A stretch of DNA of 64,000 bases from Pseudomonas helvetica. Its GTDB lineage: Bacteria; Pseudomonadota; Gammaproteobacteria; Pseudomonadales; Pseudomonadaceae. The stretch spans positions 3,235,501 through 3,299,500 of the forward strand of contig NZ_CP150917.1 of NCBI RefSeq assembly GCF_039908645.1. The letters run 5' to 3'. Of this stretch, positions 51,643-64,000 are shown one piece after another. The position numbers and the translations under genes are program-made. Below the pieces are notes generated by a model. The model was given only the letters and a program-made list of their open reading frames with translations. It had not been told where the DNA came from and searched no databases. The stretch's first letter is position 1. Each line of letters starts with the position of its first letter.

Positions 51643-52346
51643 TAGGTGGACGCTGCAATGTCGGTGATACCGTGAACGAACAAGCTGGTCCCCAATCAAA
51701 TCCTTCGCCATGCTGAAAGCTGCAGATCTCGTACAGTGCCGCACTTGAGGCGAACCAGCAGCGTTCCCCAAAACATTTCAATTACTAACGAAAGGTCGTG
51801 GATCATCAGTGCAAGCCATCGGGTGACCGTACCGACCATAAAACTCATCAGATAGAATCTGAGATGTGCAGGTAGAGGTAAATTCTTTTCTAGGCGACAA
51901 AACGCCTATGCAAGGAATTTTGTTCTCGTAATGAAAAGGGATTACTTCCGAGAGCTGTAGGACGCGTTGCAGTTGAGCCTAGGTAATTTCCTGTGTAACG
52001 CAACACTCACGAACATGCTCGTAAGGCGCATAATGTATATTATGTTAAATCATGTGTCTGAGCGGAACTTTCCTCCTTGTCCATTTCCGCGATTCTGTGT
52101 CGGTTTTTTCACGAACCTGTGCTGACTGGTTTTTCATGAGCTTAGACATCTCTCTTCAGGTACTGCCAGCGATATCTTGCTTGGCTGGCCCACAGTTGGA
52201 CTCCTGAGCAAGCCAATAAGGCGATCAGGGACAACAACGAATCTCAAAATCATTTTCAGGCCCTCTCCTATATTGTCTTGCGGTTTGGTGGTCGCCGCGG
52301 TAATCGATAGGCATTCCAACAACAATTTGACGTGGAGCGGCGACGT
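51643..52346. other. Gene-poor gap with an imperfect direct repeat
   Basis: About 700 bases without a convincing gene. CCATGCTGAACGCAGCAGAT (51603) and a related copy at 51708 (CCATGCTGAAAGCTGCAGAT) agree at about 30 of 38 positions, which may be the remnant of a mobile element or a duplication. A near-palindrome, CATAATGTATATTATG (52029-52044), lies in AT-rich DNA and could be a promoter or operator. The LysR gene starts at the end of this gap. Confidence 0.4.
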
Positions 52347-53282
52347 TTGGAATTAAGACAACTGCGATATTTCGTAAAAATCCTCGAACACGGCAGCTTG
52401 GGACGCGCAGCTCTTGAACTGGACGTCGGCGTATCAGCCCTTAGCCAACAGATCGCGAAACTTGAAAGTGAGCTGTCAACCCGCCTCCTTAATCGCACCA
52501 CTACTGGCGTCACACCTACCAGCTCCGGTATGGCGTTCCTGCACCATGCCCAGCTGTGTTTGCGGCAAGCCGAAAATGCGATCATGGCCGCTCACCGTGG
52601 GCGAATGAGTGGGTACGTCACCGTCGGAATGGCGCCCACGACTGCCACTGTTCTTGCCCTGCCCTTGATCAACGCGATGCGAGAGCGCTACCCGGATATC
52701 CAATTGCACCTGGTCGAGATGCTGTCCGGGCATTTGGCCACACAACTCAATGCTCGCCAGATCGACCTGGCCATTCTGTTTCAACTCGAAGGTGGTAAGC
52801 GCTGGAGCGTGACACCGCTGCTCGACGAAAAACTATTTGTCATCAGCTCACCGCACCTGCCCCACGCACCACAAGGAACCAGCGTGCATCTGGCGGATCT
52901 GGGGCAACTTCCACTGGTAATGCCGAGTGCGCAACACGGTTTGCGTTCTACGCTGATGGTTGCGTTTGAACGTTCGGGATTGGCTCCCAACATCATCATG
53001 GAAGTGGATGGTCTTGCCGTATTGATGAACGCCGTACGCGCAGGTCATGCTGCCACCATCCAGCCCGGTGCGGCAGCGGCGCTCAAAGGTGAGTCGGGAC
53101 TTTCAGTGGTGGAAATTTCCGATGCTCACGTAGGTCGACGAAACCTGCTGGCGACACTGCCTGATGATGAGCTGTCTCCCGCTGCTCTGGCGGCGCGACT
53201 GGTCATCACCGATGTCGCTCGACAGTTGGTCGTTGATCAACATTGGCCGGGAGCGTCGTGGATTGAGGACGTCGCGTCATGA
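52347..53282 (+). CDS. tcuR: LysR-family regulator of tricarballylate use (TcuR-type)
   Basis: About 311 residues. The family start MELRQLRYFVKI fits a TTG at 52347, with GGAG at 52334-52337; a GTG at 52332 would add five residues. The helix-turn-helix is LGRAALELDVGVSALSQQIAKLE. It lies just before tcuA on the same strand, as in tcuR-tcuABC loci. Its ligand should be tricarballylate or a similar tricarboxylate. Confidence 0.8.
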   Translation: MELRQLRYFVKILEHGSLGRAALELDVGVSALSQQIAKLESELSTRLLNRTTTGVTPTSSGMAFLHHAQLCLRQAENAIMAAHRGRMSGYVTVGMAPTTATVLALPLINAMRERYPDIQLHLVEMLSGHLATQLNARQIDLAILFQLEGGKRWSVTPLLDEKLFVISSPHLPHAPQGTSVHLADLGQLPLVMPSAQHGLRSTLMVAFERSGLAPNIIMEVDGLAVLMNAVRAGHAATIQPGAAAALKGESGLSVVEISDAHVGRRNLLATLPDDELSPAALAARLVITDVARQLVVDQHWPGASWIEDVAS

Positions 53283-53455
53283 TCCCGGCGCACCCTCTTC
53301 CCGGTTTCCAATACTGGGGTGTCCGCACCAAAGCCTTTACGAAAACTAAACACCCCCATTCATTTCGCGCCTTTCGACAATAAGCTGACAGCTCTACCTT
53401 CTCCCCACTCGCGAGGAGCACTTCGTTCATGCCTCCTTGCGATTGAGGAGTGATG

Positions 53456-54907
53456 ATGATCGACGTATTAGTAATTGGCGGCGGCAATGCCGCCTTGTGT
53501 GCAGCGTTGATGGCGCGAGAGGCTGGCGCTAGCGTGATGCTGCTGGAGGGCGCACCGAAAATCTGGCGCGGTGGCAACTCGCAACACACCCGAAACCTGC
53601 GATGTATGCACGACGCACCGCAAGATGTGTTGGTCGATGCCTATCCCGAAGAAGAATATTGGCAGGATCTGCTGAAAGTCACCGGTGGGATTACTAACGA
53701 AAAGCTTGCACGTATTGTCATCCGCGCCTCGTCGAACTGCCGTGACTGGATGCGCTCCCATGGTGTGCATTTTCAGCCGTCGTTGTCTGGTGCCCTACAT
53801 GTTGCGCGCACCAATGCGTTTTTCATGGGTGGCGGCAAAGCGTTGGTTAACGCGTACTTCCGTAGCGCCGAGCGGCTGGGCGTCAAGATCCGCTACAACG
53901 CTCAAGTCACTGACATTGAGATGAAGGGCGGAGAGTTCGTCGCGGCGTACATCGGTGACCGTGAGGTCGATGGTCAGCCTTTACCCGCCGAGCGTATTCA
54001 GGCCAAAGCCTGCGTTCTGGCGGCTGGCGGTTTCGAGTCGAACCGCGAATGGCTCCGCGAAGCTTGGGGTCAAAACGAGCGCGGAGAATGGCCCTCAGAC
54101 AACTTTCTGATTCGCGGGACGCGCTTCAATACCGGCGTACTGCTTCGGCGCATGCAGAGCCTGGGCGCCGATTTTATCGGCGACCCAACCCAAGCGCACA
54201 TGGTGGCCATCGACGCCCGAGCCCCCCTGTATGACGGTGGTATCTGCACCCGTATCGATTGCGTATCGCTGGGCGTGGTGGTTAATCGCGACGGCGAACG
54301 CTTCTATGACGAGGGCGAAGATTTCTGGCCCAAGCGCTATGCGATCTGGGGCCGCCTGGTGGCCGGTCAACCCGGTCAACAGGCCTACTCGATCATCGAC
54401 CAACAAGCCCTCGGCCGTTTCATGCCTCCGGTGTTTCCGGGTACTAAAGCCAACTCCCTGCAAGAACTGGCCCGCCAGTTGAAGCTTCCCGTTACGCAAT
54501 TCGTCAAAACCATCGAGGAATACAACGCGGCCTGCCGTATCGGCACGTTCGACCACACCGCGTTGGACGATTGCCACACCGAAGGTTTGACTCCCGCCAA
54601 AACCCATTGGGCCCGCCCATTGGTAAAGCCCCCCTTCTGCGCCTACCCACTTAAGCCAGGCGTGACCTTCACCTATCTGGGGCTGGCTACCGACGATACC
54701 GCCGCCGTTCACTTCAACGGCGAGGCTAGCCCGAACCTGTTTGTCGCAGGAGAAATGATGGCGGGCAACGTATTGGGCAAGGGCTATACCGCCGGCATCG
54801 GCATGGCCATTGGCACCGCATTCGGTCGCATCGCCGGTGTGCAAGCCGCGGCTGCGGCCGGCTTCCTGACCCCTTCCTCCACGGAGCCCCAACATGCAAC
54901 TGTTTGA
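53456..54907 (+). CDS. tcuA: FAD-dependent tricarballylate dehydrogenase
   Basis: About 483 residues from ATG 53456, with GAGGAG five nt upstream; ATG 53453 and a GTG 53450 are alternatives. The FAD site is [18 protein letters not shown]. The C-terminal [22 protein letters not shown] is typical of succinate-dehydrogenase/fumarate-reductase-like flavoproteins. TcuA oxidises tricarballylate to cis-aconitate. It overlaps tcuB by 14 bp, so the genes are translationally coupled. Confidence 0.9.
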
Positions 54908-56051
54908 TCCCAAGGCACCGGGTAATTTGATTCCCGTACTCAACCTTGATGAAAGCGAAGTTCAGCGACAAATGACCGTTTGCAATGCCTGCCGTTACTG
55001 CGAGGGCTTCTGCGCTGTATTTCCGGCCATGACACGACGTCTGGAGTTTTCTCAGGCGGATATCCATTACCTGGCGAACCTTTGCCATAACTGCGGCGCA
55101 TGCCTGCATGCCTGTCAGTACGCTGCCCCTCACGAATTCGAAATCAATGTGCCCAAGGCCATGGCCAAAGTCCGCCTCGACACTTATGCCGAGTACGCCT
55201 GGCCACAGGTGATGGGCACGCTATACCGGCGCAACGGACTGACTCTGGCACTGTCCGCCGGTGCCGGGCTGGCACTGTTCCTGTGTCTCACGTTGATGGT
55301 GATGGGCAACCTGTTCACGGCGATGCCCAGGGGAAATTTCTACGGGATCTTCCCGCACAACACCCTGGCCGTAATGTTCGGTGCAGTTTTCGGATTCGCG
55401 GTACTCGCGTTAACCCTTGGCGCGCGGCGCTTCTGGCGCAATGTTTCACCGGCCGACGCGCCCGCGCAGGAAAAAACCGCCGCTGCACTGGAAGCCACGG
55501 CCAACGTCGCCCGGCTCAAATTTCTGGACGGTGGCCATGGCGAGGGCTGCAATAACGCTGATGATCGATTCACCTTGTGGCGGCGGCGCTTCCACCACTT
55601 CACCTTCTACGGCTTCATGCTGTGTTTCGCAGCCACTGGGGTCGCCACGCTCTACCATTTCCTTCTGGACTGGTCGGCGCCCTACCCCGTCCTGAGCTTG
55701 CCGGTGATGCTGGGCATCGCAGGTGGAGTCGGTCTGCTGATAGGTCCCGCAGGCCTGTTGTGGTTGAACCTGCGTCGCAACCCTGAGCACGGCGACGACA
55801 ATCAGAAACCCATGGATCGTGGCTTTATCGCGCTGCTGTTCCTGGTCAGCGCCAGCGGCCTGGCACTCCTGGCGTTCCGTGAAACCGCAGCCTTGGGCCT
55901 GTTGCTGGCAATCCATCTCGGCCTGGTCATGGCGTTTTTCCTGACAATGCCCTACAGCAAATTCGCCCATGGCATCTTCCGCAGCGCCGCGCTGCTCAAG
56001 TACTCCATCGAAAAACGCCAACCCAACCCGATCAACGCAGGTAGCGACTGA
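54894..56051 (+). CDS. tcuB: Tricarballylate utilisation Fe-S/heme protein TcuB
   Basis: A 385-residue protein. The N-terminal part has two cysteine clusters ([15 protein letters not shown] and [14 protein letters not shown]) for 4Fe-4S centres. The rest is a membrane domain with several helices ([19 protein letters not shown] and others). TcuB re-oxidises the TcuA flavin and passes electrons to the quinone pool. It is followed by tcuC. Confidence 0.9.
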
Positions 56052-56098
56052 TCGGCGATCCATTCATTCCAAAAACAATATTGATCACCACGGTAGCC

Positions 56099-57397
56099 AT
56101 GATGAAAACAACAACTCAAGACACCCGATCCAAGGGGTCGAAACTGGGCGCCATCCTGCGGGTCACTAGCGGCAATTTTCTCGAACAGTTCGACTTCTTT
56201 CTGTTCGGGTTTTACGCGACCTACATCTCCCAGACGTTCTTTCCTACCACCAGCGAGTTCGCCTCGTTAATGATGACCTTCGCCGTATTCGGCTCGGGAT
56301 TTCTTATGCGGCCGCTGGGCGCTATCTTGCTGGGCGCATACATCGACAAGGTGGGCCGGCGAAAGGGGCTGATCGTGACGCTGTCGATCATGGCTGCGGG
56401 CACGGTCTTGATCGCCTTGGTTCCGGGCTACGCCAGCATAGGCATCGCAGCGCCGATATTGGTGTTGCTCGGGCGACTGTTGCAGGGATTCTCCGCGGGT
56501 GCGGAAATGGGTGGTGTTTCCGTGTACCTGGCTGAAATCGCCACGCCCGGACGCCGGGGTTTCTATACCAGTTGGCAGTCGGCCAGCCAACAAGTGGCGA
56601 TCATTCTTGCGGCTGCGTTGGGCTATACGATTAACGCGTCTATGGAGGCCGCCGACGTTGCAGCCTGGGGCTGGCGTATCCCATTCTTCATTGGTTGCCT
56701 GATTATCCCGTTCATCTTCATCATTCGCCGCTCGCTACAGGAAACCGATGCATTCAAAGCGCGCAGCCATCACCCAAGTGCCAGTGAAGTCTTTCGCTCG
56801 ATGCGGGACAACTGGCGCACGGTACTGGCTGGTGGTCTGTTAGCGTCGATGACCACGACCACGTTCTATCTCATTACCGTCTACACCCCGACTTTCGGCC
56901 GGTCTGTACTGAACCTGAGCACCAGCGACAGTCTGGTGGTCACGCTCTTCGTCGGCCTGAGCAACTTCATCTGGCTGCCCATCGGCGGTACGATCTCTGA
57001 TCGCATTGGACGCCGCCCCTTGTTGCTGGCGGTCACCTTGCTGTGCATCTTCACCGCCTATCCCGCCATGCATTGGCTGGCCGCGGCGGCAAGCTTCGAA
57101 CGACTGCTCGCCGTGCTGCTGTACTTCTCTTTTTTCTTTGGCATTTACAACGGCGCGATGGTTGCTGCATTGACTGAGGTAATGCCTCAGAACGTACGAG
57201 TTGTAGGATTTTCACTGGCATTCAGTTTGGCAACGGCTGTGTTTGGCGGTTTTACACCCGCCGTATCAACAATCCTGGTGCAGGCAACAGGTGACAAGGC
57301 GTCGCCCGCCTACTGGCTAATGTTTGCTGCGTTGTGTGGGTTCACAGCGACGACGATCCTGTATCGCAGGCAAAAAGCAGTGCCAGTCAACGTTTGA
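56099..57397 (+). CDS. tcuC: MFS transporter TcuC (tricarballylate/citrate-proton symporter type)
   Basis: About 432 residues from ATG 56099 with 12 predicted helices. It has the major-facilitator motifs [13 protein letters not shown] and [24 protein letters not shown], which place it near CitA/TcuC symporters. It imports the substrate of the TcuAB pathway. It follows tcuB by 47 bp and the ribosome-binding site is weak. Confidence 0.88.
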
Positions 57398-57695: not shown

Positions 57696-59192
57696 TCACT
57701 TCATCGTCGGCATAGAGAACTCGACTCCCTCCCGAACTCCCGAAGACGGCCAGCGCTGGGTGACCGTTTTACGCTTGCTATAGAAGCGAACCGCATCCGG
57801 GCCGTAGGCATGCAAATCGCCGAACAACGAGCGTTTCCAGCCACCAAAACTATGATAGGCGACAGGTACTGGGAGCGGTACGTTGACACCGACCATGCCG
57901 ACCTTGATGTTGTCAGAGAAGTATCGGGCTGCTTCACCATCGCGAGTGAAGATACAGGTGCCATTACCGTATTCATGAGCATCGATCAGTTGCATCGCCT
58001 CTTGCATGCTCTGCGTGCGCACGATCAACAGCACCGGCCCGAAGATCTCTTCCTCGTAGCAGCGCATGCCGGGTTTGACTTGATCGATCAATGTCCCCCC
58101 AACAAAAAAACCGTTCTCGCAAGCTGGAACCTGAATGTTTCGACCATCCACTACGACCTCCGCGCCCTCCTCTTCTGCACTGTCGATGTATCCGATCACT
58201 TTTTGCTGATGTTGGCGAGTGATCAGAGGGCCGAAGTCGTTGCTCTTGTCTTGATAGGCGCCGACCTTGAGACGGGTCATTGCTTCGCGCATTTTACTGA
58301 TCAAGGCATCGGCTGTTGCATCACCTACTGTGACCGCTACAGACAGTGCCATGCATCGTTCCCCTGATGATCCAAATGCAGCCCCCACCAACTGGTTGAC
58401 CGCATTATCGATGTCCGCATCTGGCATAACGATGGCGTGGTTTTTTGCTCCACCTAATGCTTGGCAACGTTTGCCATTTGCCGCAGCTGTTCGGTAGATG
58501 TACTCAGCGATTGGTGTCGAGCCTACAAAACTTACCGCCTGGACACGATGGTCGTGGAGCAAGGTATCAACGGCCTCCTTGTCACCATTGACCACGCTCA
58601 TGACGCCATTCGGCAAACCAGCTTCCTGCAGCAACTGAGCGATGAACAAGGTCGAACTTGGATCACGCTCGGAGGGTTTCAGGATGAAGCAGTTACCGCA
58701 GGCAATCGCCATAGGAAACATCCACAGCGGCACCATCGCAGGGAAGTTGAATGGCGTGATTCCAGCAACTACCCCCAGCGGTTGGAACTCACTCCAAGAA
58801 TCGATATTGGGGCCAACATTTTTGCTGTGTTCCCCCTTGAGCAACTCGGGCACACCACACGCATATTCAACATTTTCGATGCCCCGCTGAAGCTCGCCCA
58901 TTGCATCGTGGACAATTTTCCCGTGCTCTTCACCAATAATTTGGCAGATACGTTCGGCATTCTGCTCAAGCAGTTCTTTGAAGCGAAACATCACCCGCGC
59001 GCGCTTGATAGGTGGTGTGTTGCGCCACTCAGGAAAAGCCGCTTCAGCGGCAGCAATGGCTTTTTCGACCGTTAGTTTCGAGGCCAGCGCAACCTGTTTG
59101 GTGACTTCGCCCGTCGCAGGATTGAACACGTCCTGAGTGCGCTCAGTGTCAGTGACAATCTGGCCGTTGATCAGATGACCTACAGTAATCAT
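57696..59192 (-). CDS. dddC: Methylmalonate/malonate semialdehyde dehydrogenase (DddC-like)
   Basis: A 498-residue CoA-acylating aldehyde dehydrogenase of the MmsA type. The nucleophile Cys lies in FGSSGERCMALSVA. MmsA-like motifs include GITPFNFPAMVPLWMFPMAI and YGNGTCIFTRDGEAARYF. AAGGA precedes the ATG. In the ddd pathway it converts malonate semialdehyde to acetyl-CoA. It is the last gene of dddD-dddB-dddC and ends at a terminator. A general valine or myo-inositol role is an alternative that the operon makes less likely. Confidence 0.85.
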   Translation of the reverse strand: MITVGHLINGQIVTDTERTQDVFNPATGEVTKQVALASKLTVEKAIAAAEAAFPEWRNTPPIKRARVMFRFKELLEQNAERICQIIGEEHGKIVHDAMGELQRGIENVEYACGVPELLKGEHSKNVGPNIDSWSEFQPLGVVAGITPFNFPAMVPLWMFPMAIACGNCFILKPSERDPSSTLFIAQLLQEAGLPNGVMSVVNGDKEAVDTLLHDHRVQAVSFVGSTPIAEYIYRTAAANGKRCQALGGAKNHAIVMPDADIDNAVNQLVGAAFGSSGERCMALSVAVTVGDATADALISKMREAMTRLKVGAYQDKSNDFGPLITRQHQQKVIGYIDSAEEEGAEVVVDGRNIQVPACENGFFVGGTLIDQVKPGMRCYEEEIFGPVLLIVRTQSMQEAMQLIDAHEYGNGTCIFTRDGEAARYFSDNIKVGMVGVNVPLPVPVAYHSFGGWKRSLFGDLHAYGPDAVRFYSKRKTVTQRWPSSGVREGVEFSMPTMK

Positions 59193-59263
59193 GTGAGTGT
59201 TCCTTATTTTATGTACGCGGCAGTTACCGCTGAAGTGATGAAGAGGCGTGGTTATCGTTTTGG

Positions 59264-60421
59264 CTACCAGAGGTTTCGGTAGAGCTCGATCATCTCGTCG
59301 ACCGAAGGCACCCGAGGATTGTTGCCCGGTGAACCGGATGCGAGGGCTTGCTCAGCCATAATTGGCATCAGTTCGAAGAAGCGTGCGCGACTGATGCCAA
59401 AGCCTTCAGGTGTAGGAACTTGCAGCTCGTCATTGAGGGCTTGCAGTTCGACGAGCAACTTAGCGTTGGCGCTGTCGTCGCTGTCCTCAACGGTCGCGAC
59501 GCCAATGGCCCGTGCACAATCGGCGTAACGTTTTGGGGCGCCTGGGATGGAGAAAGCTGTTACGCCTGGCAGCAGCATCGCGTTGGAAAGTCCGTGTGGC
59601 ACATGGAAAAAAGCTCCAATCGGGCGGCTCATACCATGCACAAGGGCAACCGAGGCTGCCGAAAACGCAACGCCGGCCAAGGTAGATCCCAGCATCAGCG
59701 CCTCGCGCGCTGCAATGTCCTGGCCTGCGTGATAGGCCCGGCGCAAGTTCGGGCCAATCAGGCGCATCGCGGCCAGCGCCTGACTGTCACTGTAGAGGTT
59801 GGCTTTGAGGCTGACATAGGCCTCAATGGCGTGGGTTAGTGCATCGATACCGGTATCCGCCGTGACACGAGCTGGCAGGGAGAGCGTCAGGGTGTAGTCG
59901 ACCAATGCCGCCACAGGCATAAACCCGATGCCTACGCAGAGCATTTTTTCGTCGTTCTGGTCATCAGTAATGATGGTAAAACGGGTAACTTCCGAACCGG
60001 TACCCGCTGTGGTCGGTACTGCGATGATCGGCAAGCCTTGCTCGCTCACCTGCCGTGGAAATTTATAGTCACGCATCTCGCCACCGAACTTGGCGAGAAT
60101 GCCAATGGCTTTGGCACTGTCGATTGGACTGCCACCACCCAATGCAATGATGCTGTCATAGTCGCCCGATCTAGCATGTTCAACACCGGCACGAATCGAA
60201 TCGACCGTGGGCTCAGGAACGGTGTCGGCGAAAACGTCGGCGCTCAAACCTTTGCTTGCAAGTACATCCTGGATACGACCGGCGTAACCGAGTTGCACCA
60301 TCATTTTGTCAGTGATGATCAATGGTCGATGGCAACCCAGGCTAGCGAGCACATCTGGAATGGCCTCGCTGGCCTTGGCGCCCACCTGCAGGATGCGCGG
60401 CAGAACTATTTGATTCGACAT
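59264..60421 (-). CDS. dddB: Iron-containing alcohol dehydrogenase (DddB-like)
   Basis: A 385-residue Fe-type alcohol dehydrogenase with ALGGGSPIDSAKAIG, VPTTAGTGSEVTRF, and the metal histidines in DALTHAIEAYV and LVHGMSRPIGAFFHVPHG. GGAGG precedes the start. In ddd loci DddB oxidises 3-hydroxypropionate to malonate semialdehyde. The gene lies 71 bp upstream of dddC and 130 bp after dddD. It is a paralogue of the alcohol dehydrogenase at 18665. Confidence 0.85.
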   Translation of the reverse strand: MSNQIVLPRILQVGAKASEAIPDVLASLGCHRPLIITDKMMVQLGYAGRIQDVLASKGLSADVFADTVPEPTVDSIRAGVEHARSGDYDSIIALGGGSPIDSAKAIGILAKFGGEMRDYKFPRQVSEQGLPIIAVPTTAGTGSEVTRFTIITDDQNDEKMLCVGIGFMPVAALVDYTLTLSLPARVTADTGIDALTHAIEAYVSLKANLYSDSQALAAMRLIGPNLRRAYHAGQDIAAREALMLGSTLAGVAFSAASVALVHGMSRPIGAFFHVPHGLSNAMLLPGVTAFSIPGAPKRYADCARAIGVATVEDSDDSANAKLLVELQALNDELQVPTPEGFGISRARFFELMPIMAEQALASGSPGNNPRVPSVDEMIELYRNLW

Positions 60422-60553
60422 GTTGCCTCCGAAAGTTTCCCTGTGGGGGCGTCGTCTCCAGGAGAGTGCCGCCCCCTATTTTTCTTGTGATGGAAGTCGC
60501 CGAGGTAGATGGGCATTTGTGAAACTTCTTACCCTTAACCTCTGACGGGAATG

Positions 60554-63052
60554 TCAGCTGGGCAAATACTCTTGGCTCCAGCTGTCGCTGATAACGCTGC
60601 GGGTCATGAGAGCGTCAACTTCACTTTCGCTGTAACCGAGTTCACCCAAGACAGATCTGGTTGAAGCGCCAAATTTTTCTGCTGGTGAAAGGCTGCGGAT
60701 CGCCGCATGGCGCGGGCGTATGGCAAAGGGATCGAGCTGAGTTACGCAGCGCCCACTCGGATGATCGGCATAGACACTGAACGAGTAGCTCCCGTTGTCA
60801 GTGCCCGGGTAGTTGTCAGCAGGTCGGCTGTAGCGATTGCGGAGATTGTCGATGTTATCCGGGACAGCAGCGGCGACTCCGGCTTCCTGCAAACGGCGTT
60901 GCCAGGTTTCTCCCGCCACCTTGGCCAGAGCTGCACTGAGGAAAGCCACGTGGTCACCTGCCGCAGACAGGCCGTTCAAGCCTTGAACTGCATCCAGTCT
61001 GCCCAGATCCGCTGAATCTGCATCGAGGTATAGCCAACCGTCAGCCGTTCGATAGAAACGCGACAGATCGCTATAACCCAACACCTCACGACCCGCCGGC
61101 TCATCAAAAGGTGCGCGCCCCGAGTAGTCGTAACAGAAAGGAACTTGAACCAGGTTGCCCAAGGCAGCCAGTGACGTCCGAGCTCGGCTGACCTTGCCAG
61201 TTCTGGACTTTTGATACAACGCTGTGGCCACGCCAAGCGCAGCAGCGAAACCGCACATCACATCAATGGTGCCAACATGAGCATGTTCTTCCGGGGTCTG
61301 CATACCGCCACCAAACCGCAGCATGATGCCGGTCGTGGCCTGGATGAGATCGTCGTAACCCAAGTAGTCAGTTCTAGGGCCACGGCGCGGGCCACCGAAG
61401 CAGTCCAACTGGCAGAAAATCACCTCAGGATTCACCTCCTTCAGGCTGGCTTCATCTAACCCTAAAGGCGCCAGTTGGCGATCAGGCGCATTCATGACAA
61501 TGACATCCACTGACTTCACCAACCTATCGAATACCTCACGCCCCTCCTCTTGATTGAGGTCGACCAACACGCTTTGCTTACCGCGCGCCGAAGACATACC
61601 GAATACCACGGTGTTCCATGGATCGTAATTTGGCTTGGTGGGGTCAAGCTTGATGACATCCGCACCGAATCGCCCGAGGAATGAGGTCGAGTGCGGGCCG
61701 GCAATCACGTTGGTCAGGTCGAGGATACGAACACCGTCCAGCCATCCTTTTGAACATGGCTGATTTACGGCTGGCAACTCCTCGCGAGTGCCTTCACTCA
61801 AGGTGGCCAATGCCTCCTCGATACTGACTTCTCGTCGTGAGAGCGGAGACAACATCAACTCTGCACTGTCTTCCAGCCAGGCTATAGCACCAGGCTGTTT
61901 CATCAGCCCATATTGATGATCAGTGACGTCAACCACTAGACCTGCAGTGTTTGCATGCTCATCGTGCAACCACTCTTGAGTTGAACGATGAGGAGCGCCA
62001 GGAAACTGCCCTTCACCGAAGATTTTTTCCCATTGCGCAGCCGTCTTGGTCAGGAAGACTTCCTTCATGCGCGCCGAGATAACCTTGGCCCAATGAGCTG
62101 GTAGTGGATAAACACCGAGTGAGGCATCACCTTCCCATTGTGCAAATGGCAGGTAGGGATCTTCAACTTTGGGAAGGCCTGCAGCGAGCATTTCCTCGTA
62201 CAAACCCATTGCCTGTAGGCAGCGTTTGGCATGCGAGCGATGGGAAGGGCAAACTGCGTAGAATTTGCGTCCGTCAGCACATTCATAGGTACGGTAGAAG
62301 GGGTCGAGGTACTCCTGCAAATCCTCATAACTGAGGTTCATCGGCAGGTTCTCGGCTCGCCTACGCTCAATCTCTTTTTCACGCAAGGTTTTGTAGCGCG
62401 CTGGATAGCCGTCGATCTTGATTGAGTTGTAAGAAAGTCCCTCCATGACCGCCGAAGCGAGCGGCACTTCAATCTCATCACCCATGCCAGTGCGTTGTCT
62501 GGATTGCAATGCCAGCACCACAGCCGAGACGGCGAGCATAGTGCCGTAAGCGGATGCGAGTGGCAGTGGAGAAAAGCTCGGGTTAATGCCCATCAATACC
62601 CGATTTTGCCCCATATCAGTGAAAACCCCTGAGGCTGAAGCGATAATTGCCTCAGTGGCACGCCATTGGCTTCGGAGTTCATCATTGGTTGCAAAACCTG
62701 GAATGGACAAGGTGATCAGTTGCGGGTGTTCACGACGCAACTCGGAAAAATCCAGCCCCAGTTTTTTCATCACGCCAGGACGGAAGTTCTCAATCACGAT
62801 GTCGGCTTTGGCGATCATCTGCCTGGCGTGGTGCAAACCCTCAGGGGACTTCAAGTCCAAGCGTAAGCACTGCTTGTTTCGGTTGAGGACGGCATTCGCC
62901 GGGCTATCCCAGAGCGGGCCAGCGGGTGGATCAATATGAATGACCGTGGCCCCGAGATCACCCAGTATCATCGCGACAGCGGGGCCGGCAATGTATTGGC
63001 CAAAATCGATAACGTTCACACCGCAAAGGGGTAGCTGACTGAGGTTTGTCAT
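60554..63052 (-). CDS. dddD: DMSP CoA-transferase/lyase DddD-like (two-domain class III CoA-transferase)
   Basis: The 832-residue protein has two CaiB/BaiF-type domains, about 1-410 and 430-832. The second keeps the catalytic Asp597 in VGTIDVMCGF. In the first, the corresponding region (SPLPLASAYG) has no Asp, so it is probably not catalytic. This fits DddD, which is about 830 residues with one catalytic Asp in the second half (Asp602 in Marinomonas, from memory). DddD transfers CoA to DMSP and releases dimethyl sulfide. The flanking Fe-ADH, MmsA-type gene and divergent LysR match known ddd loci. Another fused CoA-transferase remains possible. Confidence 0.85.
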   Translation of the reverse strand: MTNLSQLPLCGVNVIDFGQYIAGPAVAMILGDLGATVIHIDPPAGPLWDSPANAVLNRNKQCLRLDLKSPEGLHHARQMIAKADIVIENFRPGVMKKLGLDFSELRREHPQLITLSIPGFATNDELRSQWRATEAIIASASGVFTDMGQNRVLMGINPSFSPLPLASAYGTMLAVSAVVLALQSRQRTGMGDEIEVPLASAVMEGLSYNSIKIDGYPARYKTLREKEIERRRAENLPMNLSYEDLQEYLDPFYRTYECADGRKFYAVCPSHRSHAKRCLQAMGLYEEMLAAGLPKVEDPYLPFAQWEGDASLGVYPLPAHWAKVISARMKEVFLTKTAAQWEKIFGEGQFPGAPHRSTQEWLHDEHANTAGLVVDVTDHQYGLMKQPGAIAWLEDSAELMLSPLSRREVSIEEALATLSEGTREELPAVNQPCSKGWLDGVRILDLTNVIAGPHSTSFLGRFGADVIKLDPTKPNYDPWNTVVFGMSSARGKQSVLVDLNQEEGREVFDRLVKSVDVIVMNAPDRQLAPLGLDEASLKEVNPEVIFCQLDCFGGPRRGPRTDYLGYDDLIQATTGIMLRFGGGMQTPEEHAHVGTIDVMCGFAAALGVATALYQKSRTGKVSRARTSLAALGNLVQVPFCYDYSGRAPFDEPAGREVLGYSDLSRFYRTADGWLYLDADSADLGRLDAVQGLNGLSAAGDHVAFLSAALAKVAGETWQRRLQEAGVAAAVPDNIDNLRNRYSRPADNYPGTDNGSYSFSVYADHPSGRCVTQLDPFAIRPRHAAIRSLSPAEKFGASTRSVLGELGYSESEVDALMTRSVISDSWSQEYLPS

Positions 63053-63211
63053 GTTTCACCCATTATTTTTATTGTCCTGCTTCTTCGAGCTTTCACGCAG
63101 GGTTTAGGTTTTCAGAAGCCGTCTGCAGAGGCTCAAAGCGTTTCAGGCTTGGCCCATTGAGTGGCGATCTGGGAGTTACTTTCGAGAAAAGTTGGGGACT
63201 GCGAAAGCAAT

Positions 63212-63241
63212 AAAAAAAAACCCTATGGGTTCATTTTTTTT
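63212..63241. promoter_or_regulatory. A-tract/palindrome/T-tract element in the dddD-dddR gap
   Basis: An A9 run is followed by AACCC-TAT-GGGTT (63219-63231) and a T8 run. The symmetrical structure lies between the divergent dddD and LysR genes. It could be an operator, an UP-type element or a short bidirectional terminator. It is only about 160 bp from the dddD start. Confidence 0.45.
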
Positions 63242-63261
63242 ATGCGATAGGAGTAGGATTT

Positions 63262-63330
63262 ATGGATGACCGCTACAAGACGTACGCTGGCTCGCCCCAC
63301 AGCCAGGCACTTTTCCTCAGAGAATTTTGA
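63262..63330 (+). CDS. Short upstream ORF (22 aa) before the LysR gene
   Basis: AGGAG at 63249-63253 precedes ATG 63262. The frame codes for 22 residues (MDDRYKTYAGSPHSQA and LFLREF) and stops with TGA at 63328-63330. The LysR ATG at 63334 lies 3 nt later and has no good site of its own. The arrangement suggests translational coupling. Whether the peptide itself has a role is unknown. Confidence 0.5.
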   Translation: MDDRYKTYAGSPHSQALFLREF

Positions 63331-63333
63331 GCC

Positions 63334-64000
63334 ATGAAGAAGCGACTACCTCCGCTCAACTGGTTGCGCGCGTTCGAGTCAGCCGCTCGTCACCTAAGCT
63401 TTACGGAGGCGGCTGTAGAACTGAGTCTCACTCAGGCAGCCGTCAGCCAGCAGATCAAAGCGCTGGAATCGCAGCTCGGCGCAGCTCTGTTTAAGCGTCT
63501 ACCTAGAGGTTTGGAACTGACGGAACCTGGCTTAGCCTTTCTACCCGTCGTCCATGAATCGGTGGAGCGTCTTGCAGCGGCGACCGATGAAATATTTGGT
63601 CAAGGGCACCGGAAGGTACTCACAGTGCGCAGCAGTCTGGTTTTCTTTACTCACTGGCTGGCGGGTCGCCTGCCGCGATTTCGTGAGCAGCATCCAGATG
63701 TCAATTTGCGTATCACCAGCAACATCTGGATGGGCGAAACCGATCTCGAATCCGATCTGGAAATTCGCTATGGCAGCGGAAAATGGACTGGCCTGAAGAG
63801 TGAACGGCTGACCTGGGATTTGCTTTTCCCTGTGTGCGCCCCTGGTTTGCCCACAACGCAAAAGCCCTTGAAAACCCCAAGAGACCTTCGTCACCACGAA
63901 CTTCTGCATGTCTTGGGTTATGAGGAGGGATGGGGCTATTGGTTGAAAAAGGCCAAGGCCGACGACGTTGACTCATCTCAAGGACTGCAGTTCGACACGC
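63334..64000 (+). CDS. dddR: LysR-family regulator (DddR-like), cut by the window end
   Basis: The frame stays open to the end of the window (222 codons). The N-terminus PPLNWLRAFESAARHLSFTE and SLTQAAVSQQIKALESQLG match GcvA/AmpR-type LysR regulators, and the effector domain begins after residue 90. It is divergent from dddD with a gap of about 280 bp. In ddd loci the LysR gene dddR activates dddD on DMSP. The C-terminal part is missing here. The transporter gene dddT is not seen in the window and might follow beyond it. Confidence 0.78.
   Translation, partial: MKKRLPPLNWLRAFESAARHLSFTEAAVELSLTQAAVSQQIKALESQLGAALFKRLPRGLELTEPGLAFLPVVHESVERLAAATDEIFGQGHRKVLTVRSSLVFFTHWLAGRLPRFREQHPDVNLRITSNIWMGETDLESDLEIRYGSGKWTGLKSERLTWDLLFPVCAPGLPTTQKPLKTPRDLRHHELLHVLGYEEGWGYWLKKAKADDVDSSQGLQFDT

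Follow-up and report, generated by a model that had tools for sequence, protein, structure and literature searches.

Introduction

Dimethylsulfoniopropionate (DMSP) is a sulfur compound of plants and algae, and its breakdown has been studied mainly at sea. DddD uses acetyl-CoA as the CoA donor and converts DMSP to 3-hydroxypropionyl-CoA (3-HP-CoA) and dimethyl sulfide (DMS) (PMC8163506). Strains of Burkholderia ambifaria and Sinorhizobium fredii NGR234 are among the DddD references of PMC8520302, dddD is expressed in E. acroporae, which produces DMS from DMSP (PMC7174347), and Pseudomonas isolates with dddD degrade DMSP (PMC9327192). The neighborhoods of ddd genes have been called 'pick n mix' (PMC7174347). 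In B. ambifaria AMMD, ATP-binding cassette (ABC) transporter genes clustered with dddD are reported to import DMSP, and the DmpXWV importer has a PF04069-type binding protein (PMC10030565). AcuZ, a LysR protein of Halomonas D47, acts as a repressor in the absence of 3-hydroxypropionate (3-HP) or acrylate and as an activator in their presence (PMC13104084). The present analysis concerns a dddD-dddB-dddC locus with a divergent lysR gene at the right edge of a 64,000-nucleotide stretch of the Pseudomonas helvetica genome (hereafter the window; G000:C1:3235501-3299500 of a single contig of 6,437,446 bases), which a preliminary description had proposed as a candidate DMSP-to-DMS pathway. We also analyzed an extended locus, L009 (G000:C1:3290500-3310400), in which the window-equivalent position is the L009 position + 54999. 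The locus is best explained as a putative DddD-type regulon for inducible DMSP catabolism, and we put the probability that it encodes a DddD-type DMSP pathway at about 0.88.

The ddd genes and the predicted pathway

Three genes lie on the minus strand, namely, dddC (57696-59192; 498 amino acids), encoding a CoA-acylating (methyl)malonate-semialdehyde dehydrogenase (TIGR01722, Pfam Aldedh), dddB (59264-60421; 385 amino acids), encoding an iron-containing alcohol dehydrogenase (Pfam Fe-ADH and ADH_Fe_C), and dddD (60554-63052; 832 amino acids), encoding a two-domain class III CoA-transferase of the DMSP CoA-transferase/lyase type, as assigned by Pfam, alignment, and tree. The lysR gene starts at 63334 on the plus strand, divergent from dddD, and is cut by the window edge (63334-64000); the whole gene (L009:8335-9234) encodes 299 amino acids and ends at window-equivalent position 64233. 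Pfam matches to CoA_transf_3 (in two stretches), Fe-ADH, Aldedh, and the LysR helix-turn-helix and substrate domains all exceed the gathering scores, and dddD is linked to dddB, dddC, and a LysR regulator gene. Open reading frames (ORFs), Pfam, and TIGR01722 bear out the layout given in the preliminary description.

At 832 residues, the dddD product exceeds the 800 residues expected of two fused class III CoA-transferase domains, and in a model of the protein, residues 6-417 and 433-827 each match class III enzymes. Its full-length identity is 77% to a B. ambifaria protein, which is named in the alignment to species only, 65% to NGR234 DddD over 832 residues, and 59-63% to nine marine-type proteins, with E. 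acroporae at 59%. These values lie above the 40-50% identity to tested DddD proteins that is given as the minimum for a DddD assignment (PMC9327192). Residue 597 in the second domain is an Asp that all 44 aligned sequences share, whereas the first domain reads SPLPLAS, without Asp, where class III enzymes carry this residue, a correspondence that follows our own reading of the alignment. Asp597 aligns with Asp602 of Marinomonas MED121, which we take to be the catalytic-position Asp of Marinomonas DddD, and Asp is present in all 17 full-length rows of an 18-row alignment (L030 and L039 were left out of this alignment and included in the tree). In the tree, the window DddD falls among soil Pseudomonas and Burkholderiaceae, in a clade judged terrestrial by record titles, apart from the marine clade. 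By its sequence, the protein is a DddD-type CoA-transferase; the pathway proposed earlier agrees with its identity over the full length, its place in the tree, the active-site alignment, and the neighboring genes. A second DddD-like clade (46-50% identical) is represented by L036 and L037, with an adjoining BCCT gene in the former and a similar ORF in the latter.

Both downstream enzymes are closest to ddd-linked relatives. DddC scores 678.8 bits on TIGR01722, the CoA-acylating methylmalonate-semialdehyde dehydrogenase family (cut-off, 448.5), and is 86% identical to the DddC encoded next to dddD on a plasmid of Pseudomonas MPC6, while the other DddC-like copies of the window genome are 68% (the same copy in L002 and L004) and 59% identical to it. 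DddB is 78% identical to its MPC6 plasmid counterpart. As predicted from these assignments, DddD would move CoA from acetyl-CoA onto DMSP via Asp597 with release of DMS, leaving 3-HP-CoA or 3-HP, which DddB would oxidize to malonate semialdehyde, and DddC would convert the latter to acetyl-CoA. The route from 3-HP through malonate semialdehyde to acetyl-CoA in the preliminary description thus fits, with its start refined to the CoA ester or 3-HP because DddD uses acetyl-CoA as the donor and yields 3-HP-CoA. In Pseudomonas sp. C1C7 (L027), dddC seemingly lacks about 1.1 kb internally, with dddD, dddB, lysR, and the ABC genes kept.

Release of DMS by the window strain is an expectation, not a result. 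In a search for SfnG, the one enzyme of DMS sulfur recovery sought, the best match in the window genome scored 143.8 bits (cut-off, 382.95), a comparison with a weak control in that 0 of 14 control genomes reached the cut-off. A linked AcuI-like gene was also sought, and no close AcuI-like protein was found, the best matches in the genome being 28-32% identical. Near dddD in seven Pseudomonas loci (L010 at 229-1891, L013, L015, L017, L020, L021, and L051) lie genes for a 327-residue zinc-type dehydrogenase and a TetR protein (Pfam run for L010 only), which are presumably acuI and acuR. As of 2012, the one known case of acuI adjoining dddD was that of Halomonas HTNK1 (PMC3338564).

A conserved 40-bp element at dddD and at candidate importer genes

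A 40-bp pattern was drawn from one conserved block in the upstream DNA of 12 loci, the window included. Scanning the genome with at most 3 mismatches gave two matches, upstream of dddD and upstream of ABC importer genes beyond the window, against none for a reversed-pattern control. The dddD element (63204-63243, minus strand) is an exact match 151 bp before the start codon. The importer-side element (window-equivalent 64307-64346), in the gap after lysR and 118 bp before the start codon of the binding-protein gene, is also exact, although it was not used in drawing the pattern. Each is in the same orientation toward its own gene. Eight other genomes with a close dddD gave 11 matches, all at the ddd locus, and none in the controls. 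Among 44 related loci compared, DddD is 66-100% identical in 30, and in 29 of these the element lies 114-157 bp upstream and departs from the pattern at no more than 5 positions, while the remaining one (L029) has it with 7 mismatches at a one-base shift; these counts are partly circular for the pattern-building loci, and the loci are related to each other. Within 400 bp upstream of dddD, the element was found in none of the 14 loci with DddD at 31-59% and not in NGR234, and at MPC6 an 8-mismatch match lies at 259 bp.

With up to 6 mismatches allowed, weaker copies appear, two each near dddD in the marine-type Pseudomonas loci L063-L065 (4-6 mismatches) and one each about 340 bp before the BCCT gene in L036 and L037 (6 and 5 mismatches), and because of these the element may not be confined to the soil clade. 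An ANAGT stretch lies about 20 bp further on in 20 aligned sites. A further copy with 5 mismatches was seen close to a DddB-like gene, at the distal end of a locus from Paraburkholderia (L018:18384-18423).

Since the element stands before both dddD and the importer, the enzymes and importer look like one regulon. LysR, which is 60% identical to the LysR of the MPC6 cluster, probably controls both dddDBC and the importer genes by acting on the two copies as candidate operators. As a working model by analogy, it may switch between repression and activation in the manner of AcuZ.

The importer genes lie directly past lysR on the same strand, just beyond position 64000 (window-equivalent 64465-68885; G000:C1:3299965-3304385). 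The four genes encode a binding protein (L009:9466-10521; SBP_bac_8/SBP_bac_1), an ATPase (L009:10636-11718), and two permeases (L009:11758-13032 and L009:13038-13886). The earlier statement that the window holds no dddT is correct, and the BCCT gene that was to be sought past its edge is replaced by this ABC importer; both BCCT genes of the genome lie far from ddd. Nor does the importer belong with DmpXWV, its binding protein being of the SBP_bac_8/SBP_bac_1 and not the PF04069 type. It adjoins lysR-dddD in five loci (L009, L010, L011, L027, and L034), and in all five the second element precedes the binding-protein gene with 0-2 mismatches. This linkage and the shared element somewhat favor DMSP as the cargo. 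Among the matches listed in a search of titles and abstract openings in the open-licence literature, we found no report of the element, nor of a Pseudomonas importer of this type linked to ddd genes. A search for the ligands of four 8jv structure entries led to one unrelated paper, and no structure paper on SAR11 PotD was among the matches listed.

Alternative explanations

Several observations weigh against a DMSP regulon that includes the importer and the element. The binding protein is nearest to γ-aminobutyrate (GABA) and opine receptors and not to DmpX-type DMSP binders; some dddD relatives, such as L040, have no ABC importer; the ddd-linked binding protein of Paraburkholderia L016, as a query against the window genome, matches the ddd-linked protein third best (44%), after two others at 53 and 49%; and a terminator-like signal is called at the dddD element on both strands (3 such sites across the region versus 1.9 expected in shuffles). 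On the L016 ranking, we rejected orthology of the importer with the Paraburkholderia dddD-linked ABC system, and because the ddd-linked protein is only the third match to that query, the AMMD import result is not transferable by orthology. The importer might instead carry GABA, an opine, or another small zwitterion without serving the DddD pathway, or be a general osmolyte importer. We consider this doubtful but worth keeping in view, as the importer adjoins lysR-dddD in five loci, each with an element before it, and at 3 or fewer mismatches the element occurs nowhere else in the window genome.

The terminator-like flag would also fit an intrinsic terminator or attenuator in place of a LysR operator, which we regard as improbable. 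In the window, the element lies between divergent genes, and its conserved part consists of A-rich and T-rich arms with GCTTT. A conserved hairpin was tried and rejected: pairing in the inner stem is not conserved (46.0% of the cells pair, a level reached by 133 of 500 shuffles), and neither pairing nor covariation is in excess.

Slightly less probable still is that the soil-clade enzyme mainly processes a related zwitterion, e.g., beta-alanine betaine, with DMSP cleavage as a side reaction. The terrestrial record titles of the clade, its separation from the marine clade, and the GABA/opine type of the binding protein are in keeping with such a role, but B. ambifaria, for which DMSP uptake by the ddd-linked importer is reported, belongs to the same clade, the stretch around Asp597 is common to the window and marine proteins, and a 2026 paper cites a report of universal DMSP accumulation in plants (PMC13352529). 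It is very improbable that the 832-residue protein belongs to some other kind of fused CoA-transferase that has nothing to do with DMSP: both halves match generic class III enzymes and source names mostly read just 'CoA transferase', but the protein is 59-77% identical over its full length to DddD references and to proteins named DddD, dddB and dddC are linked, and no NCBIfam model reaches its cut-off, the best being succinate--glutarate CoA-transferase at 193.7 bits against 750, so that the closer kinship to such a family that would have spoken against the preliminary description was not seen.

Distribution, neighborhoods, and mobility

The system is rare in the genus, as had been supposed from the window: DddD matches at E <= 1e-150 occur in 17 of 398 sampled Pseudomonas genomes, its own included, nine at 78-100% identity and eight at 61-63%, and four of the latter (G060, G138, G242, and G381) hold a second copy at 50%. 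Partner genes vary across the 44 loci, for which the ORF neighbor lists are incomplete, real genes being lost to longer overlapping frames, and the neighborhood Pfam run covered L012, L017, L034, and L036. The ABC importer is divergent from dddD in L010, L011, L027, and L034; other loci carry a BCCT gene, Paraburkholderia loci have another ABC system, and L034 has both the ABC importer and a BCCT gene.

DNA similarity to PICF141 (94%) and MWU16-30317 (81%) spans dddC to the second permease and ends at both sides, except for one 84-bp match in MWU16-30317; the flanking DNA in the PICF141 record is short, about 0.7 and 2.2 kb. As the ddd block thus stands in different surroundings, its sequence suggests movement as a unit. 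Its GC content is 54.2% against 59.4% for the window, and that of the right flank is likewise 54.2%.

A tricarballylate-use operon with a LysR gene adjoins the block (window 52332-57397; TcuA, TcuB, and TcuC exceed NCBIfam cut-offs). Directly beyond the importer, in the opposite direction, is a gene whose product has the DNA-binding domain of the xenogeneic silencer MvaT (L009:14041-14589). In the related genome G007, which has no dddD match, contig G007:C21 (L098 and L099) holds tcuB and fragments of tcuC at a distance of about 23 kb from the kinase region of the right flank, with other genes between, and the site looks variable.

Comparison with known systems

The surprise is limited because the dddD cluster type is already known; the locus adds the candidate ABC importer past the window and the element tying it to dddD. 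We give an even chance to a broader proposal, in which soil Pseudomonas and Burkholderiaceae would share a DMSP regulon marked by the 40-bp LysR element, and one Pseudomonas lineage, separately from Burkholderiaceae, would have recruited a GABA/opine-type importer under the same element as its DMSP importer. If true, the element could find terrestrial DMSP users and importers from sequence alone. As a DddD system of the terrestrial type that includes its regulator, two copies of a candidate operator, and a candidate importer, the locus would open the use of DMSP by soil- and plant-associated Pseudomonas to experiment in a genus that is easy to work with.

The closest known systems are the dddD clusters of B. 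ambifaria AMMD and Paraburkholderia, a comparison that rests on Paraburkholderia loci, B. ambifaria DddD, and PMC10030565. They share the DddD clade and the element upstream of dddD, and the Paraburkholderia loci have a LysR 76-79% identical to that of the window and an ABC importer of the same broad family. However, their lysR and ABC genes run in the dddD direction, their binding protein shares 39-43% identity with the one described here and resembles other proteins of the window genome more closely, and in L024 a GMC oxidoreductase follows. The marine-type dddD/dddT/dddB/dddC clusters of Marinomonas, Halomonas, P. taeanensis, and P. benzenivorans likewise combine dddD, dddB, dddC, and LysR, and the MPC6 plasmid cluster comes close in DddB and DddC, but marine-type DddD is only 59-63% identical and the importer is BCCT in place of ABC. 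NGR234 DddD keeps the catalytic-position Asp at 65% identity, yet it belongs to another clade and lacks the element in the 400 bp upstream. SAR11 PotD, the GABA receptor Atu4243, and the opine-binding MotA share the fold of the importer binding protein at 32-38% identity, whereas they have no known dddD linkage.
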